Source: Nitrospira sp. MA-1 (GTDB lineage: Bacteria; Nitrospirota; Nitrospiria; Nitrospirales; UBA8639). From it: a stretch of DNA of 64,000 nucleotides. Shown here in pieces: positions 46,724 to 55,069 of this stretch (positions are counted from its first letter, which is position 1; every line of letters starts with the position of its first letter). The position numbers and the translations under genes are program-made. Location of the stretch: positions 186,001 through 250,000 of the forward strand of contig JAQJDB010000006.1 in NCBI GenBank assembly GCA_032139905.1. Direction: 5' to 3'. Below the pieces are notes generated by a model that was not told where the DNA came from, made no database searches, and worked only from the letters and a program-made list of their open reading frames with translations.

Positions 46724-47611
46724 ATGTCGACTGTCCATTCAGAACCCCTCTTTCAACACGTGACCATTATCGGGATAGGCCTGCTCGGCGGCTCTCTCGG
46801 CCTTGCGCTGAAGAAACAGGGCTTAGCCAAGACGGTCGTGGGGATCGGTCGTCGACAAGAAAATCTTGATTTAGCCGTTCAAATGGGTGCCATTGACCAA
46901 TTTTTTCTGGAGCCTCATGATGCAGTGAGCCACTCGGATTTAATTGTCCTGGCCACTCCTGTCGAGACCTATCTCCCACAAATTGACCTGTGGGGAAAAG
47001 ATCTAGCTCCGTCCGCAATCGTGAGTGATGTGGGGAGCGTGAAGGGTCAACTGGTCTCAAAAGTTGAAGCCCGGTTGCTTCCTTCGACGTTTTTTGTCGG
47101 CGCTCATCCGATTGCCGGAAAGGAAAAATCTGGAGTGGCTCACGCCGACTCGCATTTATTTCAAGACGCTCGATGTATTCTGACTCCGACTTCCCATACG
47201 AATGCCCATGCTCTGGAAAGAGTTCGGCATCTTTGGGAGACTGTTGGATCCGTGGTGTCGTCTATGGATCCCATGGACCATGATTGGGTTTTCGGTGCGG
47301 TGAGTCATTTGCCTCATATCGCAGCCTTTTCTCTTATGCACACCTTGGAAGCGTTGCAGGGACGAACGTCACAGGCTGGGGACTTGCTGAATTTTTCCGG
47401 CGGAGGGTTGCGCGATACCACCAGGATTGCCGCCAGTTCGCCTGAAATGTGGCGGGATATTTGTGTCGCCAATCATGAGAATTTGGTGGAGATGGTGGAT
47501 CAGTATATTCAACAGTTACAAGGTTTTCGTGAAAAGTTGAGTAAACGGGATGCAGATGGATTGTACGATGCGATTGCCAGGGCAAAAGCCTCGCGAGAGC
47601 GGTTGATATGA
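46724..47611 (+). CDS. tyrA: Prephenate dehydrogenase
   Basis: 295 residues from ATG 46724; GTG at 46697 is an alternative and no start has a good ribosome binding site. The NAD site IIGIGLLGGSLGLAL is at about residue 15, followed by the catalytic region (FVGAHPIAGKEKSGVAHA) and the second His block (DHDWVFGAVSHLPHIAAF). It converts prephenate to 4-hydroxyphenylpyruvate for tyrosine. No ACT domain is present. Its last codons overlap the aroA start by 4 bp. Confidence 0.93.
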   Translation: MSTVHSEPLFQHVTIIGIGLLGGSLGLALKKQGLAKTVVGIGRRQENLDLAVQMGAIDQFFLEPHDAVSHSDLIVLATPVETYLPQIDLWGKDLAPSAIVSDVGSVKGQLVSKVEARLLPSTFFVGAHPIAGKEKSGVAHADSHLFQDARCILTPTSHTNAHALERVRHLWETVGSVVSSMDPMDHDWVFGAVSHLPHIAAFSLMHTLEALQGRTSQAGDLLNFSGGGLRDTTRIAASSPEMWRDICVANHENLVEMVDQYIQQLQGFREKLSKRDADGLYDAIARAKASRERLI

Positions 47612-48903
47612 ATCAGTTCACAATTCTTCCAACTACAAAACCTCTTCGTGGCAGAGTGTCGGTGCCAGGGGACAAATCCATCACGCATCGTGCCCTCATT
47701 TTTGGAGCTTTGGCGCAGGGCCAGACACGTATTACAGGCTACTCTAAAGGAGAGGATTGCCTGAATACCCTTAGTGCGATACGTGCTTTAGGCGCTGATG
47801 TGCAGGAAACCCCCGAGGCAGTTGAGGTGACCGGCAAAGGGCTCTGGGGGCTGCAGGAACCGTCGAATGTGTTGGATTGTGGAAATTCCGGGACGGGTTT
47901 GCGCTTACTAGCTGGCGTCTTAGCCGGGCAAAATTTCTTTTCCGTTCTCACGGGTGATGCCTCTTTGAGAAGTCGTCCGATGGGCCGGGTGGTCACACCT
48001 CTTCGTCAAATGGGGGCTGTTATCTCGGGAAGACATGGTGGTGAGTTGGCTCCTTTGGCTATTCAAGGGAACGGACTCAAGGCGATTCTCTACGAATCTC
48101 CTGTCGCCAGTGCGCAAATAAAATCGTGCGTCCTGTTGGCCGGGCTCTTTGCCGAAGGGACGACCATTGTGAAGGAGCCTAGACGATCCCGAGATCACAC
48201 GGAGCGTCTTCTGGACTATTTGGGAGTCTCCCTCCAGGTTGATGGGTGCACCGTGCAGCTTCAAGGTCGACCCTCTTTTGATGGAAAACCGATTGCGGTT
48301 CCCGGAGATATCTCGGCTGCGGCCTTTTTCATGGTTGCCGCATCGATCGTTCCCGATTCGGATATCTTACTCACTGATATAGGGTTGAATCCCGAACGAA
48401 CTGGTATTCTGGATATTCTCCTCGAGATGGGGGCTGATATCACTATTGTCAATCAACGTGAAATATCGGGGGAACCGGTAGGTGATATCCGTGTGAGGTC
48501 TGCTCCGCTGAGGGGAATGATCGTTGGGCCTGAACTCATTCCCAAAACGATTGATGAATTGCCTATATTGTGCGTGGCTGCCGCTTTGGCCCATGGCCAG
48601 ACACGCATTACCGGAGCACAAGAACTTCGGGTGAAGGAGACCGATCGTATTCGAGCTATGGCGACCGAATTATCGCGTCTCCACGTTGAGGTGGAGGAAC
48701 AGCCGGATGGTTTAATCATCAATGGAGGTTCCCCTCTCAAGGGTGCGATTTGTCAGAGCTATGGCGATCATCGGGTGGTGATGTCATTGGCCATTTGCGG
48801 ATTAGTGGCAGAGTCTCCGGTTACCATTGAGGATGTGGCTTGCGTTGAAACCTCCTTCCCGGGCTTTAAAGATAAGCTGTTGGATTTATTGACAAATTCT
48901 TAG
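47608..48903 (+). CDS. aroA: 3-phosphoshikimate 1-carboxyvinyltransferase (EPSP synthase)
   Basis: 431 residues. It forms EPSP from shikimate 3-phosphate and PEP. The blocks VPGDKSITHRALIFGALA, LDCGNSGTGLRLLAGVLAG, EPRRSRDHTERLL, RVKETDRIRAMATEL and YGDHRVVMSLAI are all present. The last Ala in LAGVLAG and the GNSGT pattern belong to the general family; class I versus II sensitivity is not decided here. It is coupled to tyrA (ATGA overlap), and cmk follows after 67 bp, a frequent aroA-cmk-rpsA order. Confidence 0.96.
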   Translation: MNQFTILPTTKPLRGRVSVPGDKSITHRALIFGALAQGQTRITGYSKGEDCLNTLSAIRALGADVQETPEAVEVTGKGLWGLQEPSNVLDCGNSGTGLRLLAGVLAGQNFFSVLTGDASLRSRPMGRVVTPLRQMGAVISGRHGGELAPLAIQGNGLKAILYESPVASAQIKSCVLLAGLFAEGTTIVKEPRRSRDHTERLLDYLGVSLQVDGCTVQLQGRPSFDGKPIAVPGDISAAAFFMVAASIVPDSDILLTDIGLNPERTGILDILLEMGADITIVNQREISGEPVGDIRVRSAPLRGMIVGPELIPKTIDELPILCVAAALAHGQTRITGAQELRVKETDRIRAMATELSRLHVEVEEQPDGLIINGGSPLKGAICQSYGDHRVVMSLAICGLVAESPVTIEDVACVETSFPGFKDKLLDLLTNS

Positions 48904-48970
48904 CGACCATTATAATGCTCCAGAAATTAGTTGGTAAGAGGAGAATAGGGCCGTTCAACGTCATCGGTTA

Positions 48971-49630
48971 ATGATCACTATTGACGGTCCAGCGGGAGTC
49001 GGGAAAAGCACTGTGGCCAAGTGTTTGGCTACACGTCTCGGATATGTTTACCTGGATACGGGTGCTTTATATCGGGCCATTGCCTGGAAAGTTCAGGAAG
49101 ACCAAATAGACCCGAACAATACTGCTCACATCCAAGGACTTCTTGCACGGACAGATCTGCGACTGATGCTGAGTGGGGATGGCCTTTCCGTTTGGGTTGA
49201 TGGGCAGGCCATTAATCAGGAGGCCATCAGAACTCCAGCCATTAGCCAATTGGCTTCCTGCGTTGCGGCAATTCGATCAGTCAGGGACTGGTTACTCCCG
49301 ATTCAGCGAAAAATTGGTGGTGAAGTTGGCGTTATCGCTGAAGGAAGGGATATGGGGACACGGGTGTTCCCAAGTGCTGATGTGAAGTTTTTTCTTGATG
49401 CGGAATTGGAGGTTCGAGCAAACCGGCGCCAACAAGAATTGTGTCAAAAAGGGAAAGCCGTTGATCTGGAGACGGTGCGAGACGCCATGGCCGTCCGAGA
49501 TGATCGTGACCGGACCAGAACGGTTGATCCGTTACGGCCGGCGCCTGAGGCGATCATGATCGACACCTCTCGACAATCTGTTGAAGAAGTTGTTGGACGT
49601 ATGATGCAAATCATTGTGGATCGTTTGTGA
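48971..49630 (+). CDS. cmk: Cytidylate kinase
   Basis: 219 residues. It phosphorylates CMP and dCMP. The P-loop is ITIDGPAGVGKSTVAKCLA near the N-terminus, followed by YLDTGALYRAIAW, EGRDMGTRVFPSADVKFFLDA and the lid region RDDRDRTRTVDPL. It overlaps plsC by 4 bp and precedes rpsA, the conserved cmk-rpsA neighbourhood. Confidence 0.96.
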   Translation: MITIDGPAGVGKSTVAKCLATRLGYVYLDTGALYRAIAWKVQEDQIDPNNTAHIQGLLARTDLRLMLSGDGLSVWVDGQAINQEAIRTPAISQLASCVAAIRSVRDWLLPIQRKIGGEVGVIAEGRDMGTRVFPSADVKFFLDAELEVRANRRQQELCQKGKAVDLETVRDAMAVRDDRDRTRTVDPLRPAPEAIMIDTSRQSVEEVVGRMMQIIVDRL

Positions 49631-50292
49631 GTGGAGCGGCTTACGGGCTGTTATGGATCCTGTTTAATGGGTTGGCTCGACTCCTGTTTCGATTTAGGAC
49701 AGAGGGTTTCCAACACTTTCCCAGGACAGGCGGAATCATCGTTGCGGCTAACCATGCCAGCTACCTTGATATTCCCCTGTTAGGGTGCGCGATTCCGCGG
49801 CGCGTTTTTTTTTTAGGGAGAGCGAGTTTATTCCCCAATCGCTACATGAATTGGGCCTTGCAAAAGCTTGGCTGGATCCCACTGAAAACCCACAAACTGG
49901 ACAGGAAGGCCTTTGGACAGGCACTCTCTCACTTGCAAGCAGGTGAACCCGTAGTTATTTTCCCTGAGGGAACAAGGACGGAGGACGGGGCCTTGCAAAT
50001 CGGGAAGCCTGGACTAGGCTATTTGGTGGCTGAATCAAATTGCCAGGTGATTCCTGTTTATATTTCTGGTACCTTTACAGTTCTTCCCATCCGGGCAAGA
50101 TGGCCACGGTTGTTTCCGTTAAGGGTCAGCTTTGGGAAACCATTGAAATTTTGTAAAAAAGATGATGGGGAGAGTGCCAAATCATTTTATGAAGACGTAT
50201 CGGTAACTGTGATGGATCATATTGCTCAATTGGGTGGCGTTCCCTCTCCGACCCGGCAGGCGTATGAGACAGATTTAAGAAGTAAATTGTGA
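49627..50292 (+). CDS. plsC: 1-acyl-sn-glycerol-3-phosphate acyltransferase
   Basis: 221 residues from a GTG overlapping the cmk stop (GTGA). The acyltransferase motifs I-IV are visible: NHASYLDIP (HX4D), FLGRASLF, FPEGTRTEDG and VIPVYISG. A hydrophobic N-terminal segment binds the inner membrane. It adds the second acyl chain to make phosphatidic acid, downstream of PlsX-derived acyl groups. Confidence 0.92.
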   Translation: MSGAAYGLLWILFNGLARLLFRFRTEGFQHFPRTGGIIVAANHASYLDIPLLGCAIPRRVFFLGRASLFPNRYMNWALQKLGWIPLKTHKLDRKAFGQALSHLQAGEPVVIFPEGTRTEDGALQIGKPGLGYLVAESNCQVIPVYISGTFTVLPIRARWPRLFPLRVSFGKPLKFCKKDDGESAKSFYEDVSVTVMDHIAQLGGVPSPTRQAYETDLRSKL

Positions 50293-50352: not shown

Positions 50353-52056
50353 ATGAATACTCTTACTCAACAACCTGAAAAAATGGATCGCGAAACCCTT
50401 GCCGCATTATACGATGAAACGTTTAAAAATATTGAAGAAGGAACGATAACCGAAGGCAGGGTCATTGATATCCAGCGAGATCGAGTGGTGGTGGATATTG
50501 GCTATAAGTCTGAAGGTATGATTCCTGCCGACCAATTCTCTCCGGAAGAGTTGGAACAGTTGGCGGTCAATGATCCGGTTCAAGTGTATATCGAGCAATG
50601 CGAAGATGCGGATGGTAATTTGCTCCTCTCCAAAGAAAAAGCTGACAAAATGAAGGTTTGGGAGGATTTGGAAGTTGCCCACAAAGATGAAAAGCAAGTG
50701 CAGGGGAAAGTCATTTCGCGTATTAAGGGCGGCATGATCGTTGATATTGGGGTGAAGGCCTTTTTGCCAGGATCGCAAATTGACTTGACACCAGTCAGAG
50801 ACCTGGATGGTCTGGTCGGGAAAACGTATAACTTTAAAATTATTAAGATTAATCATCGTCGGGGAAATGTGGTGGTCTCCCGACGGGCTCTTCTAGAAGA
50901 AACCCGTGACAAACGAAGACAATCGACTTTGTCTACGTTGTCTGAAGGGCAGTTGATTGAAGGGACCGTGAAGAACATAACGGATTATGGAGCTTTCTTG
51001 GATTTGGGTGGCATCGATGGTCTGCTGCATATCACCGATATTTCCTGGGGCCGTGTGGGGCATCCCTCAGACATGTTCTCCATTGGAGATCGTGTTGAAG
51101 TCTTAGTATTGAAATACGACCGGGAAACGGGTCGTATCTCCCTGGGTGTTAAGCAGAAATCTCCAGACCCCTGGACTAAAGTTGAAGAAAAGTATCCGTC
51201 AAGAAGTCGCGTGAATGGTAGGGTTGTGAGCCTGACCGATTATGGGGCATTCGTCGAGTTGGAGCCAGGGGTTGAAGGTTTGGTCCATGTGTCGGAAATG
51301 TCTTGGACTCATGAAGTTCGCCATCCCTCAAAGGTGGTCTCCGTGGGCGATACAATTGAGGCTCAAGTGCTTCATGTTGACCAACATAGCCGGAAAATTT
51401 CTCTTGGAATGAAGCAAACGGCTCCTAACCCTTGGGATATCATTGAGGACAAGTACCCGGAAGGTACAGAGATTGAGGGTAAAGTAAAAAGCGTGACCGA
51501 CTTTGGTGCCTTTGTAGGTTTGGACGAAGGTGTCGATGGCCTGATCCATATTTCTGATATGTCGTGGACGAAGCATATCAAACATCCTTCGGAACTGTTC
51601 AAGAAGGGACAATCGGTTAAAGCCATTATTTTGAAAATTGATAAAGAAAAAGAGCGGTTATCCTTGGGGTATAAGCAGCTGATCTCGGACCCATGGGTCT
51701 CTGATATTCCTCAGCAATATCATGTTGGGGAGGTCACTTCCGGCAAAGTTTCAAAAATCGCTGACTTTGGTGTATTCGTGGAATTAGATGGCGGGGTAGA
51801 AGGGTTAATTCATATCAGTGAGATCGGGCCGGATGTGCAGGAGCGACTCGAGGAAAAGTTTGCTGTTGGTCAGGATGTCTCCGCAAAAATCGTCAAGGTT
51901 GACTGTGATGATCGGAAAATTGCGTTAAGTCTTTGGGAGCATTTGAAGGATCTGGAGCAAAGTGAGGTTGAAGAGTTTAATAGCTCTCAAGGTAGTGTGG
52001 ACCAGAGCTTTGGGCGCGTTGTCCAAAAGAAAGATCAAGGGGATGAGGGCGAATAG
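50353..52056 (+). CDS. rpsA: 30S ribosomal protein S1
   Basis: 567 residues with six S1 RNA-binding domains. The two N-terminal ones (starting near residues 35 and 115: EGRVIDIQRDRVVVDIG, GKVISRIKGGMIVDIGVKA) bind the ribosome. The four later ones share the DYGAF/DFGAFV signature (near residues 210, 295, 380 and 467) and bind mRNA. A Glu/Ser-rich tail ends the protein. It recruits mRNAs to the 30S subunit. It follows plsC by 60 bp. Confidence 0.95.
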   Translation: MNTLTQQPEKMDRETLAALYDETFKNIEEGTITEGRVIDIQRDRVVVDIGYKSEGMIPADQFSPEELEQLAVNDPVQVYIEQCEDADGNLLLSKEKADKMKVWEDLEVAHKDEKQVQGKVISRIKGGMIVDIGVKAFLPGSQIDLTPVRDLDGLVGKTYNFKIIKINHRRGNVVVSRRALLEETRDKRRQSTLSTLSEGQLIEGTVKNITDYGAFLDLGGIDGLLHITDISWGRVGHPSDMFSIGDRVEVLVLKYDRETGRISLGVKQKSPDPWTKVEEKYPSRSRVNGRVVSLTDYGAFVELEPGVEGLVHVSEMSWTHEVRHPSKVVSVGDTIEAQVLHVDQHSRKISLGMKQTAPNPWDIIEDKYPEGTEIEGKVKSVTDFGAFVGLDEGVDGLIHISDMSWTKHIKHPSELFKKGQSVKAIILKIDKEKERLSLGYKQLISDPWVSDIPQQYHVGEVTSGKVSKIADFGVFVELDGGVEGLIHISEIGPDVQERLEEKFAVGQDVSAKIVKVDCDDRKIALSLWEHLKDLEQSEVEEFNSSQGSVDQSFGRVVQKKDQGDEGE

Positions 52057-52119
52057 GCATCATGGGCAGAATGATTGGATGAATATGGGGCTTCTTCAGG
52101 ATGGCCAATCCCGAATACT

Positions 52120-52998
52120 ATGAGTAATGGGTATCCACGATGGAAACGGGTTCTGTGGATGATTCTCGGAGGCCTTGTCCTGTTTAGTATTGGGAAAAGC
52201 CTAATTCCTGAGTTATTGTTAGCAGGTAAGGACGGTGTGGCCATTGTTCGGGTTGAGGGTCCCATTCTTGATTCGTTTCAGACTGTCGAGGAATTGAAGA
52301 AATTTGCTGACGATCCTTTGGTCAAAGCGATCGTGGTGAGAATTGATAGTCCTGGTGGGGGCGTGGCGCCTTCCCAAGAAATTTACAATGCCGTCAAGAG
52401 AGTAAGAAAAGAAAAGAATAAAACGGTGATCGCCTCCATGGGCACGGTGGCGGCTTCCGGAGGCTATTACATTGCGGTGGCCACCGATCGCATTCTGGCT
52501 AACCCTGGGACTTTAACGGGAAGCATTGGCGTCATTATGCAATTGGCGAATTTCCACGAGTTGCTGGAAAAAATCGGCGTCAAAAATTTTGTAGTCAAAA
52601 GTGGAAAATATAAAGATATTGGCTCTCCTTTTCGGCCCATGAATGATGAAGATCGCAAGGTATTGGAGTTGGTGATGAATGATGTCCATCGTCAATTTAT
52701 TGATGCTGTGGCCGAGGGGCGGTCTCTGGATGTGGCGGAAGTTGAGCAGTTAGCCGATGGGCGAGTCTTTACGGGGCAACAGGCTAAGTCCATCTTATTA
52801 GTTGATGATATTGGCGATCTGCACGATGCCATTAAGTTAGCTGGCGAATTAGGCGGGATTGAGGGGGAGCCACGGGTTGTGGAGGTGAGCAAGCCGTTTT
52901 CATTCAGGGATTTACTTGAAAACACATTCCTTGGAAGCGTTCGCACCTTTGCCACGACTCATTTTTCCACCCCTTTGATGTACCTTTGGGTTTCCTGA
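52120..52998 (+). CDS. sppA: Signal peptide peptidase SppA (36K type)
   Basis: 292 residues from ATG 52120; a start at 52075 would add 15 residues, and neither has a strong ribosome binding site. One N-terminal membrane helix (about residues 8-28) anchors it with the protease domain outside. The catalytic Ser is in GTVAASGGYYIA and the catalytic Lys in KSGKYKDIGSPFR; the substrate groove has VRIDSPGGGVAPSQEI. It degrades leftover signal peptides. It lies between rpsA and the HU/IHF gene. Confidence 0.92.
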   Translation: MSNGYPRWKRVLWMILGGLVLFSIGKSLIPELLLAGKDGVAIVRVEGPILDSFQTVEELKKFADDPLVKAIVVRIDSPGGGVAPSQEIYNAVKRVRKEKNKTVIASMGTVAASGGYYIAVATDRILANPGTLTGSIGVIMQLANFHELLEKIGVKNFVVKSGKYKDIGSPFRPMNDEDRKVLELVMNDVHRQFIDAVAEGRSLDVAEVEQLADGRVFTGQQAKSILLVDDIGDLHDAIKLAGELGGIEGEPRVVEVSKPFSFRDLLENTFLGSVRTFATTHFSTPLMYLWVS

Positions 52999-53098: not shown

Positions 53099-53392
53099 AT
53101 GACAAAAGCGGATCTCATCGAAAAGTTGGCGGAAAAGGCTCCCCAATTGAGTCGAAGACAAGCCGAGTTAGTGGTCAATACCATTTTTGATTCTATCCGT
53201 GATTCCTTAAAGCGTGGAGAAAAAACAGAAATTCGCGGGTTTGGAAGTTTTCGTCTCAGGCACCGCCAGACCAAAGAAGGGCGTAACCCCAAAACCGGGG
53301 AATCGGTGTCTGTCCCAGAAAAGCGCATGCCATTTTTTAAAGCCGGCAAAGAGATCAAAGAATTATTAAACCCTGAATTACCCTCTGTTTAA
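53099..53392 (+). CDS. HU/IHF-family DNA-binding protein
   Basis: 97 residues with a perfect AAGGAGG before the ATG. TKADLIEKLAEKAPQLSRRQAE and the family signature FGSFRLRHRQTKEGRNPKTGE lead to the DNA-bending arm with its Pro tip. The ending VPEKRMPFFKAGKEIKELLN resembles IHF-alpha/beta more than HU. The position behind rpsA (or sppA) matches ihfB in many bacteria, so IHF-beta-like is the best call. The PCP_red gene starts three bases later. Confidence 0.9.
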   Translation: MTKADLIEKLAEKAPQLSRRQAELVVNTIFDSIRDSLKRGEKTEIRGFGSFRLRHRQTKEGRNPKTGESVSVPEKRMPFFKAGKEIKELLNPELPSV

Positions 53393-53395
53393 AAC

Positions 53396-54382
53396 ATGTC
53401 TACTGCCGAGCCATCTGAAACTGAGCAAGAAATTCCCTGGACTGAAGAGGCTTCCTCTAGACTGGAACGCGCGCCTTTGTTCCTGAGAGGCATGGTGCGC
53501 CGTCTGGCAGAAAAAAAGGCCAAAGAATTAGGGTATGTAGAAATTACGGCGGAAATTCTAGACCAATTTAAGCAGCAAATGATGGGTTCGATGGGGGGCG
53601 CGGCAGGCATGACTCAGGCTGTCGAAGATATGGCTCAAGGCAAACTCCCCTGGACCGCAGAGGCGCGGAAGCGACTTGAGGCGGTACCAGAGTTCATGCG
53701 AAGCATGATTGGCAGGATTGCTGAAGATGTGGCCAAAGAACGTGGCCATATGGAAGTGAATGTGGAATTATTTGAAAAGGTTGAGGCCTTAGGTGATTTT
53801 CCGCTCGAGAAGAGCGTGCCTATGGAATGGACCGATGAAGCTTTGGCTTTGTTGAATAAACGCATTGAGGATTCACCTCCGATTGCCATGGAATTTGTGA
53901 CGGATATGTTAAAGCGGGACGCTGAGGATTTAGCCCGTGAGCAAGGGATCGTGAAGATTGATACCGAGACTTTGATTCGTCTTTGGGAGGCTCCGCCCAC
54001 TCAGGTGGCATGGACGGATGAGGCCTGGAAGCGTCTTCATACCTCACCTGATTTTGTCCGGAGCGGTATTCGAAAAGCTGCGGAACGCCGTGCGAGAAAA
54101 CTCGGGTTAAATACTATCGATTCTGAACACCTCACCACCTTTAGAAATGAAGCGATGATGAAAGCCGTCAAGCGGATTCGAAGTTTTGGCTATCAGGAAC
54201 TGACCTTTGATGCGTTTGGTGATGCCATGCAAAAAGTTAAACGACTAAAGGGGAATGAGCAGGCGGAACATCGTTTGGATGAGATCAGGGATTATATGAA
54301 GAAAAAGCCCGATGTAGGTTTATTGGGTGATGAACTGATGACCCGCTTCCGGAAATTTTTAAAAGGAGAAGGGAAGCTGTAA
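53396..54382 (+). CDS. Four-repeat PCP_red (protochlorophyllide reductase 57-kDa-like) domain protein
   Basis: 328 residues containing four copies of a roughly 50-residue helical unit that begins with a WT-x-E/D-A signature, at Trp 15, about 86, about 144 and about 206 (PWTEEASSRLERAP, PWTAEARKRLEAVP, EWTDEALALLNKR, AWTDEAWKRLHTSP). Each continues with a charged amphipathic pair and an ending like AEKKAKELGYVEIT. This is the PCP_red unit otherwise known from the end of the light-independent protochlorophyllide reductase subunit BchB. No catalytic domain or Cys ligand is present, so it is not a reductase. It lies 3 bp after the HU/IHF gene and is surely co-transcribed. The function is unknown. 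Confidence 0.8.
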   Translation: MSTAEPSETEQEIPWTEEASSRLERAPLFLRGMVRRLAEKKAKELGYVEITAEILDQFKQQMMGSMGGAAGMTQAVEDMAQGKLPWTAEARKRLEAVPEFMRSMIGRIAEDVAKERGHMEVNVELFEKVEALGDFPLEKSVPMEWTDEALALLNKRIEDSPPIAMEFVTDMLKRDAEDLAREQGIVKIDTETLIRLWEAPPTQVAWTDEAWKRLHTSPDFVRSGIRKAAERRARKLGLNTIDSEHLTTFRNEAMMKAVKRIRSFGYQELTFDAFGDAMQKVKRLKGNEQAEHRLDEIRDYMKKKPDVGLLGDELMTRFRKFLKGEGKL

Positions 54383-54445: not shown

Positions 54446-55069
54446 TTACTTCCCCTGAGCCCCTTCTTTCGCAAGTTGATCGACAAGATCATTTTCTGGA
54501 TTCCCGGAGTGAGCCTTCACTTTGACCCAATGAATAGAGATGCCTGATTCGATGACCGTCCGAGCGTAGGCTTCGGTAAACGGCAGTTTGGTGCGCCAGG
54601 CTCCGGTTACCCAACTTTCCAATCCTTGGTAATCAAAGTAGATCGTCATTTCTGTAATCCCTTGGGATTGACACCATTTGACAGCTTTGAGGATGGCAAG
54701 AATTTCACCAGCGACATTTCGGTGGTTCATGGCAGATCGCGGAATGTCGTTCCCCTTGTCCCGATAAATTTCTACACCATTTTTTTTGGCCAGTAACCCC
54801 CATCCCAGTCGAAGAGAGCCATCTTTTTGTGTGAAGCAGGATCCATCTACCCAAACTTCTATCGTCGAAGGCGATGTTGTTTCTGCTGCAACTGGCTTGT
54901 TCTTGATTGGTTCACTGCTTAAACGAAAAGAAAGAAATGCTTCAGCTTCTGCTCGGGTGGGGAAAGCTTTATATTCGGCTCCTGGAAAATGATGTACTTG
55001 GGCACGGCAGGCATCCCAACTCTCAAAAATTCCTTTTGTGCGTCCGCGGCGAACGGCATAGAATTTCAT
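54446..55069 (-). CDS. rnhA: Ribonuclease H1 with N-terminal viroplasmin-like domain
   Basis: 207 residues. Residues 1-45 are the hybrid-binding/caulimovirus viroplasmin-like domain (KFYAVRRGRTKGIFESWDAC, YKAFPTRAEAEAFL). After a linker, the RNase H domain has the metal-binding residues Asp (VWVDGSCF), Glu (NVAGEILAIL), Asp (IYFDYQGLESW) and a C-terminal Asp (NDLVDQLAKEG). It removes RNA from RNA-DNA hybrids. It is convergent with the PCP_red gene. Confidence 0.93.
   Translation of the reverse strand: MKFYAVRRGRTKGIFESWDACRAQVHHFPGAEYKAFPTRAEAEAFLSFRLSSEPIKNKPVAAETTSPSTIEVWVDGSCFTQKDGSLRLGWGLLAKKNGVEIYRDKGNDIPRSAMNHRNVAGEILAILKAVKWCQSQGITEMTIYFDYQGLESWVTGAWRTKLPFTEAYARTVIESGISIHWVKVKAHSGNPENDLVDQLAKEGAQGK

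Follow-up and report, generated by a model that had tools for sequence, protein, structure and literature searches.

The window, a 64,000-nucleotide stretch of the Nitrospira sp. MA-1 genome, contains on its plus strand a string of genes in the order aroA-cmk-plsC-rpsA-sppA-ihfB-PCP4, the last of which encodes a stand-alone protein composed of four PCP_red units and a conserved C-terminal tail. The upstream part of this housekeeping string, aroA-cmk-plsC (47608..50292), was named from the translations. It is followed by rpsA (50353..52056), the translation of which contains the repeats of ribosomal protein S1 and the order of which is kept in relatives, by sppA (52075..52998), identified as a signal peptide peptidase gene through a family profile match, and by ihfB (53099..53392), a gene of the HU/IHF family that scores 123.1 bits against the NCBIfam model of integration host factor beta, the cut-off of which is 115 bits. 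The order aroA-cmk-rpsA-ihfB is known from E. coli. Between the ihfB stop codon and the PCP4 start there are 3 nt, and the first-pass annotation was correct in placing PCP4 three bases behind a nucleoid-protein gene. Directly downstream of PCP4, on the minus strand (54446-55069), lies an RNase H gene, which also encodes a Cauli_VI domain at the N-terminus; it is found near PCP4 in some relatives only.

PCP4 (53396..54382) is a protein of 328 residues without Cys and with an acidic pI of 5.7. The Pfam PCP_red profile (PF08369) matches it in four stretches (E=2.8e-47, 158.9 bits). Units were also scored singly in the genome, and three of the four exceed the gathering cut-off of 32.5 bits: R1 (53432..53575, aa 13-60; 56.1 bits, E 2.2e-14), R2 (53645..53788, aa 84-131; 48.2 bits), which carries a GH(M/L)EVN motif, and R4 (54005..54148, aa 204-251; 50.2 bits). 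The acidic and most divergent unit, R3 (53822..53971, aa 143-192; 30.8 bits, E 1.6e-6), falls just under it. The observation of four PCP_red units directly 3' of ihfB is therefore confirmed, as is the WT-x-E/D-A motif that had been noticed at the start of the repeats and that opens each of the four units. Pairwise, the units share 17-20 identical residues. The most conserved unit, R4, with 25 of 48 positions invariant, is also the most basic, and together with the conserved, basic and helical tail (54149..54379) it forms a C-terminal part with pI values of 10.8 and 9.6. His118 in R2 is retained in 49 of 49 PCP4 orthologs, in the radical-SAM fusions and in 19 of the 21 rows of a wider set.

AlphaFold2 predicts for each unit a short strand, a helix, a long helix, a strand and a helix, in line with the helical protein suggested from the sequence. 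Confidence in the stand-alone model is modest (pLDDT 69, pTM 0.41); neither this model nor that of the fused protein described below places the units confidently relative to one another or to the enzyme. The best matches of the units in the PDB are two NMR structures of PCP_red domains, 2kru (probability 1.00, E 0.07, rmsd 1.0, target TM 0.77) and 2l09 (probability 1.00, E 0.2, target TM 0.70). A histone-like fold was considered because the units look like helix-strand-helix elements; it was set aside and is at most a lead, since Foldseek returned C-domains of AAA+ proteins (RuvBL) and very weak histone matches, none with E<0.3.

The neighbourhood of PCP4 was compared in 80 loci from Nitrospirota, most of them in metagenome-assembled genomes, the nearest record being that of Nitrospirales bacterium NPIRA06 with 98% identity. 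ihfB lies directly upstream of PCP4 in 60 of the 80 loci, in some with an overlap of 4-20 nt, and is absent in 14; six loci lack readable upstream sequence. On a maximum-likelihood tree of PCP4 the ihfB neighbour state is confined to Nitrospirales, with one apparent loss. The parsimonious reading, on a tree the root of which is not fixed, is that PCP4 was relocated behind ihfB in Nitrospirales, where it is probably expressed together with the rpsA-ihfB housekeeping genes. Two genomes labelled Nitrospinota (L077, L097) carry PCP4 genes that group within Nitrospirales on the tree and have the same ihfB neighbour; these genomes are probably mislabelled bins.

Outside Nitrospirales, PCP4 adjoins other genes that encode PCP_red proteins. 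In eight loci (L105-L110, L112, L113), which form one group of Manganitrophaceae/Troglogloeales type on the tree, the order is Usp-PCP_red, radical-SAM-PCP_red, PCP4 and a CopD-like membrane protein. In three others (L103, L104, L116) an Mrp ATPase gene is followed by PCP2z, which encodes a CxxC-rich PCP_red protein, by a haem-oxygenase-like gene (PF14518) and by PCP4. Loci taken from whole genomes repeat both the Usp/radical-SAM type (L152-L154, L161, L162) and the Mrp type (L155, L156). The haem-oxygenase-like partner is not a core part of the set in Nitrospirales, since a search of 41 relatives yielded distant matches only (at most 31% identity, in 15 of them) and the window genome yielded none.

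Gene fusions extend this picture. In three genomes of family f20 (L147, L148, L149) a single open reading frame of 706-730 aa joins a radical-SAM/SPASM enzyme with its own PCP_red unit to a C-terminal PCP4 part, which is 40-42% identical over about aa 15-324 and comprises units R2-R4 and the tail; the model of the fused protein has a mean pLDDT of 80 and a pTM of 0.59. Usp-PCP_red lies directly upstream of the fusion and protoporphyrinogen oxidase (TIGR00562; 290.7 bits against a cut-off of 97.85 in L147) directly downstream. In families f14 and f38, R4 and the tail are instead fused to Usp-PCP_red, followed by radical-SAM-PCP_red (L163, L164, L166, L167 and others), and L172 encodes a 199-aa version that ends in R4 and the tail. 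R4 plus tail recurs whether PCP4 stands alone, is fused to the radical-SAM enzyme or to Usp-PCP_red, or is short, and is thus the common denominator of the PCP4 forms. The fusions also show that the absence of a catalytic domain, pointed out in the first-pass annotation, holds for the polypeptide of the window but not for its relatives.

The window genome encodes 12 PCP_red units in five proteins (4+2+3+1+2). Besides PCP4 these are PCP2z (L118:6024-6839), which has two units and follows an Mrp/ApbC-type ATPase; Usp-PCP_red (L119), with two Usp domains, three units and a rubredoxin-like domain; radical-SAM-PCP_red, which follows it in L119, has one unit and precedes a CopD-like membrane protein; and the short PCP2b (L120), with two units, behind DUF420. 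The PCP2z family has an N-terminal CxxC...CxxC ribbon; in the window-genome copy a GCPFS motif also precedes the PCP_red units. Wherever a locus shows both PCP2z and the Mrp/ApbC-type ATPase, the two are adjacent. The separate PCP_red loci of the window genome (Mrp-PCP2z, Usp-radical-SAM-CopD-like, DUF420-PCP2b) are fragments of the strings seen in sister lineages. PCP_red occurs in 60 of 60 relatives. In a Nitrospirota sample of 296 genomes it was found in 165; almost all genomes of the class, taken to be Nitrospiria, have about 12 units, and genomes outside it usually have none to three. A PCP4 ortholog, as counted from the listing, is present in 113 of the 114 genomes of the class versus 11 of the 182 outside; plasmid-borne copies were not found. 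It is well supported that PCP4 belongs to a conserved multi-protein PCP_red set. A literature search found no paper on these PCP_red proteins.

The radical-SAM partner matches PF04055 and the SPASM profile PF13186, and its translation contains the CxxxCxxC motif (RCNLKCDHC). Its best family-model matches are AhbD and NirJ2, with 302-343 bits against 500 bits and thus under both equivalog cut-offs; among solved structures, those closest to it in fold are peptide-acting SPASM enzymes (PqqE, anSME, SuiB). An AhbC-like enzyme was not seen in the window genome.

Elsewhere, PCP_red has been recognised chiefly as an extra part of an enzyme of chlorophyll synthesis, where it belongs to a tetrapyrrole reductase subunit. 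A role in chlorophyll synthesis was rejected for these non-photosynthetic bacteria, since BchL was not found above the cut-off in the window genome or in any of 60 relatives, with Synechococcus as a positive control; the earlier suggestion of a role other than pigment synthesis is borne out to this extent. Against the model of subunit B of DPOR, the dark-operative protochlorophyllide reductase, PCP4 scores 104 versus 509 bits, and the match covers the C-terminal tail only and not the nitrogenase-like domain. For heme synthesis, the window genome encodes a HemY-type oxidase as well as a protein of the HemQ family. Ferrochelatase (TIGR00109, PF00762) was found neither in this genome, which is 99.98% complete, nor in the 19 genomes sampled from its family (f1), but it is present in most other genomes of the order; the insertion of iron during heme synthesis is unaccounted for. 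Of the 98 genomes searched, 89 have a HemQ-family protein and four have HemN above the cut-off. Since the standard last steps of heme synthesis are otherwise covered in most genomes, the set would need a special cofactor or insertion step as its object.

A candidate target lies beside the PCP_red genes themselves. In six families these genes adjoin those for a bd-like oxidase (PF01654), for c-type cytochromes that carry an EB_dh domain, or for both, and the neighbours are homologous across the families. In the window genome (f1; L120/L178) the string comprises DUF420, PCP2b, a bd-like oxidase, a second bd-like oxidase and two cytochromes; the loci of the other families are L160/L180 (f6), L172 (f19), L148 and L176 (f20), L171 (f29) and L170 (f36). 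One contig (G176:C60) combines within about 25 kb Usp-PCP_red, radical-SAM-PCP_red, CopD-like, PCP4, haem-oxygenase-like, PCP2z, Mrp, DUF420, thioredoxin-like, cytochrome and bd-like oxidase genes with a protoporphyrinogen-oxidase homolog. In Nitrospirales, PCP4 is far from the oxidase and only PCP2b is near it. A secreted-looking family of 250-300 aa also lies beside PCP_red/bd-like oxidase genes (L120:4646-5440, L158, L159, L176, L177, L180). The oxidase linked to PCP_red in the window genome is a homolog of the broad family of published bd-like oxidases. A canonical heme-copper oxidase is missing from most nitrite oxidisers of the Nitrospirales; these bacteria and the manganese oxidisers Ca. 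Manganitrophus are thought to respire via a poorly characterised bd-like oxidase (PMC6606698, PMC9040806, PMC10579370). For Nitrospira, a bd-like oxidase has been put forward as a novel terminal oxidase, or complex IV (PMC6606698); the same was proposed for Ca. Manganitrophus, with TO_1 (PMC9040806), and the heme b ligands are conserved in bd-like oxidases according to the Nitrospina paper (PMC3578206).

Based on the shared domain, membership in the set, the fusions, the gene order and the distribution, we propose, with about an even chance of being right, that PCP4 serves as a subunit without catalytic activity in a PCP_red system of Nitrospirota, and that this system acts on a heme-type tetrapyrrole cofactor for the bd-like terminal oxidase and its cytochromes. 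In biochemical terms PCP4 would most likely be the docking or substrate-holding subunit of a radical-SAM tetrapyrrole system. This would consist of the AhbD/NirJ-type radical-SAM/SPASM enzyme with its PCP_red tail, Usp-PCP_red with or without the rubredoxin-like domain, the Mrp/ApbC-type Fe-S carrier ATPase with its CxxC-PCP_red partner, the membrane proteins of CopD-like and DUF420 type and, in certain lineages, the haem-oxygenase-like protein. PCP4 would dock on the radical-SAM enzyme through its conserved basic R4 and tail, and the PCP_red units would hold or pass on a porphyrin or its protein carrier. A tetrapyrrole substrate is suggested by the kinship of the enzyme with AhbD/NirJ2, although below the cut-off, by the neighbouring protoporphyrinogen oxidase and by the known setting of PCP_red. 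The system would make or install the cofactor of the bd-like oxidase, its presumed target. Of the scaffold functions named in the first-pass annotation, association with heme is the one that agrees with this model. A more far-reaching version, in which the set is a previously undescribed pathway dedicated to making or installing a modified heme of the non-canonical bd-like oxidase and PCP_red a reusable module for handling or docking tetrapyrroles, is possible but doubtful.

Other functions of the set have to be weighed against this proposal. The Usp, rubredoxin-like and Mrp/ApbC-type Fe-S carrier proteins within the set, and the thioredoxin-like and haem-oxygenase-like neighbours, would suit the repair of Fe-S, iron or redox damage, in which they guard the oxygen-sensitive enzymes of aerobic lithotrophs, both radical-SAM and Fe-S ones, or rebuild them, PCP_red units serve as assembly adaptors and the link to the oxidase reflects oxygen management. 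We consider this unlikely, because the radical-SAM protein matches the heme enzymes AhbD/NirJ2 best, because protoporphyrinogen oxidase directly adjoins the f20 fusion and because PCP4 has no Cys. The same preference of the family scores for AhbD/NirJ2 over peptide maturases makes it improbable that the product of the enzyme is a modified peptide, or a modified side chain in a subunit of the oxidase or a cytochrome, with PCP_red as the substrate-recognition part, a function with which its solved fold relatives, its SPASM domain and the occurrence of PCP_red on several partners, as is seen with recognition domains, would be compatible.

Two further alternatives have very little probability. Co-expression with HU/IHF had been taken to suggest a chromosome-linked or stress role for PCP4, and the frequent and sometimes overlapping ihfB adjacency and the basic R4 and tail are features expected of such a protein. 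This role was rejected, since the 80 neighbourhoods and the tree restrict the adjacency to Nitrospirales, in which PCP4 trails aroA-cmk-rpsA-ihfB; elsewhere its neighbours are radical-SAM, Usp-PCP_red, Mrp, haem-oxygenase-like and CopD-like proteins, and in fusions its partners are radical-SAM or Usp proteins. The protein as a whole is acidic, its best folds are those of PCP_red with histone folds at a probability of about 0.1 only, and no nucleoid-associated or histone family in Pfam or NCBIfam matches it. Hardly more credible is a replacement of the missing ferrochelatase or of the step that decarboxylates coproheme in the standard pathway to heme, to which the lack of ferrochelatase throughout the sampled genomes of family f1 and the ability of AhbD to decarboxylate coproheme (PMC7242693) would point. 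In a PF00762 scan of 296 genomes, only some of those with the set lack ferrochelatase; it occurs together with the full PCP_red set in further families of this order and class. A function as sole coproheme decarboxylase or coproporphyrinogen dehydrogenase was likewise rejected, since the HemQ family or HemN, the two covered by the search, coexists with the set.

PCP4 and its set resemble several known systems in part. The IHF-related histones (PMC11390915) are likewise small helical proteins encoded beside an IHF-like gene, but they have histone folds and belong to other phyla, whereas PCP4 has PCP_red units and lacks ihfB in 14 of the 74 loci with readable upstream sequence, the link being limited to one order. 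In the published clusters of Nitrospirota bd-like oxidases the main texts that were searched mention no chlorophyll- or PCP-type protein, unlike the six families in which PCP_red genes adjoin the oxidase and/or c-type cytochrome/EB_dh genes; the class-wide set provides named candidates for the maturation of this poorly characterised enzyme. AhbD (heme b synthase) and NirJ2 are the models against which the radical-SAM/SPASM part of the fusion partner scores best, but the partner remains under both cut-offs, carries PCP_red and occurs in the window genome without a visible AhbC-like enzyme. Asr4154 of Nostoc (PDB 2l09, 62 aa, target TM 0.70) is also a stand-alone PCP_red protein without a catalytic domain, although it has one unit and stems from a phototroph. 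By sequence and fold PCP4 belongs to the same family as the PCP_red domain of BchB/ChlB (PDB 2kru, 2ynm, 3aek), from which it differs in its four tandem units, in the lack of the nitrogenase-like catalytic domain and in its occurrence in an order without BchL above the cut-off. With the class-wide set, PCP_red gains a second setting, beyond the chlorophyll-synthesis enzyme, in which its function can be learned.
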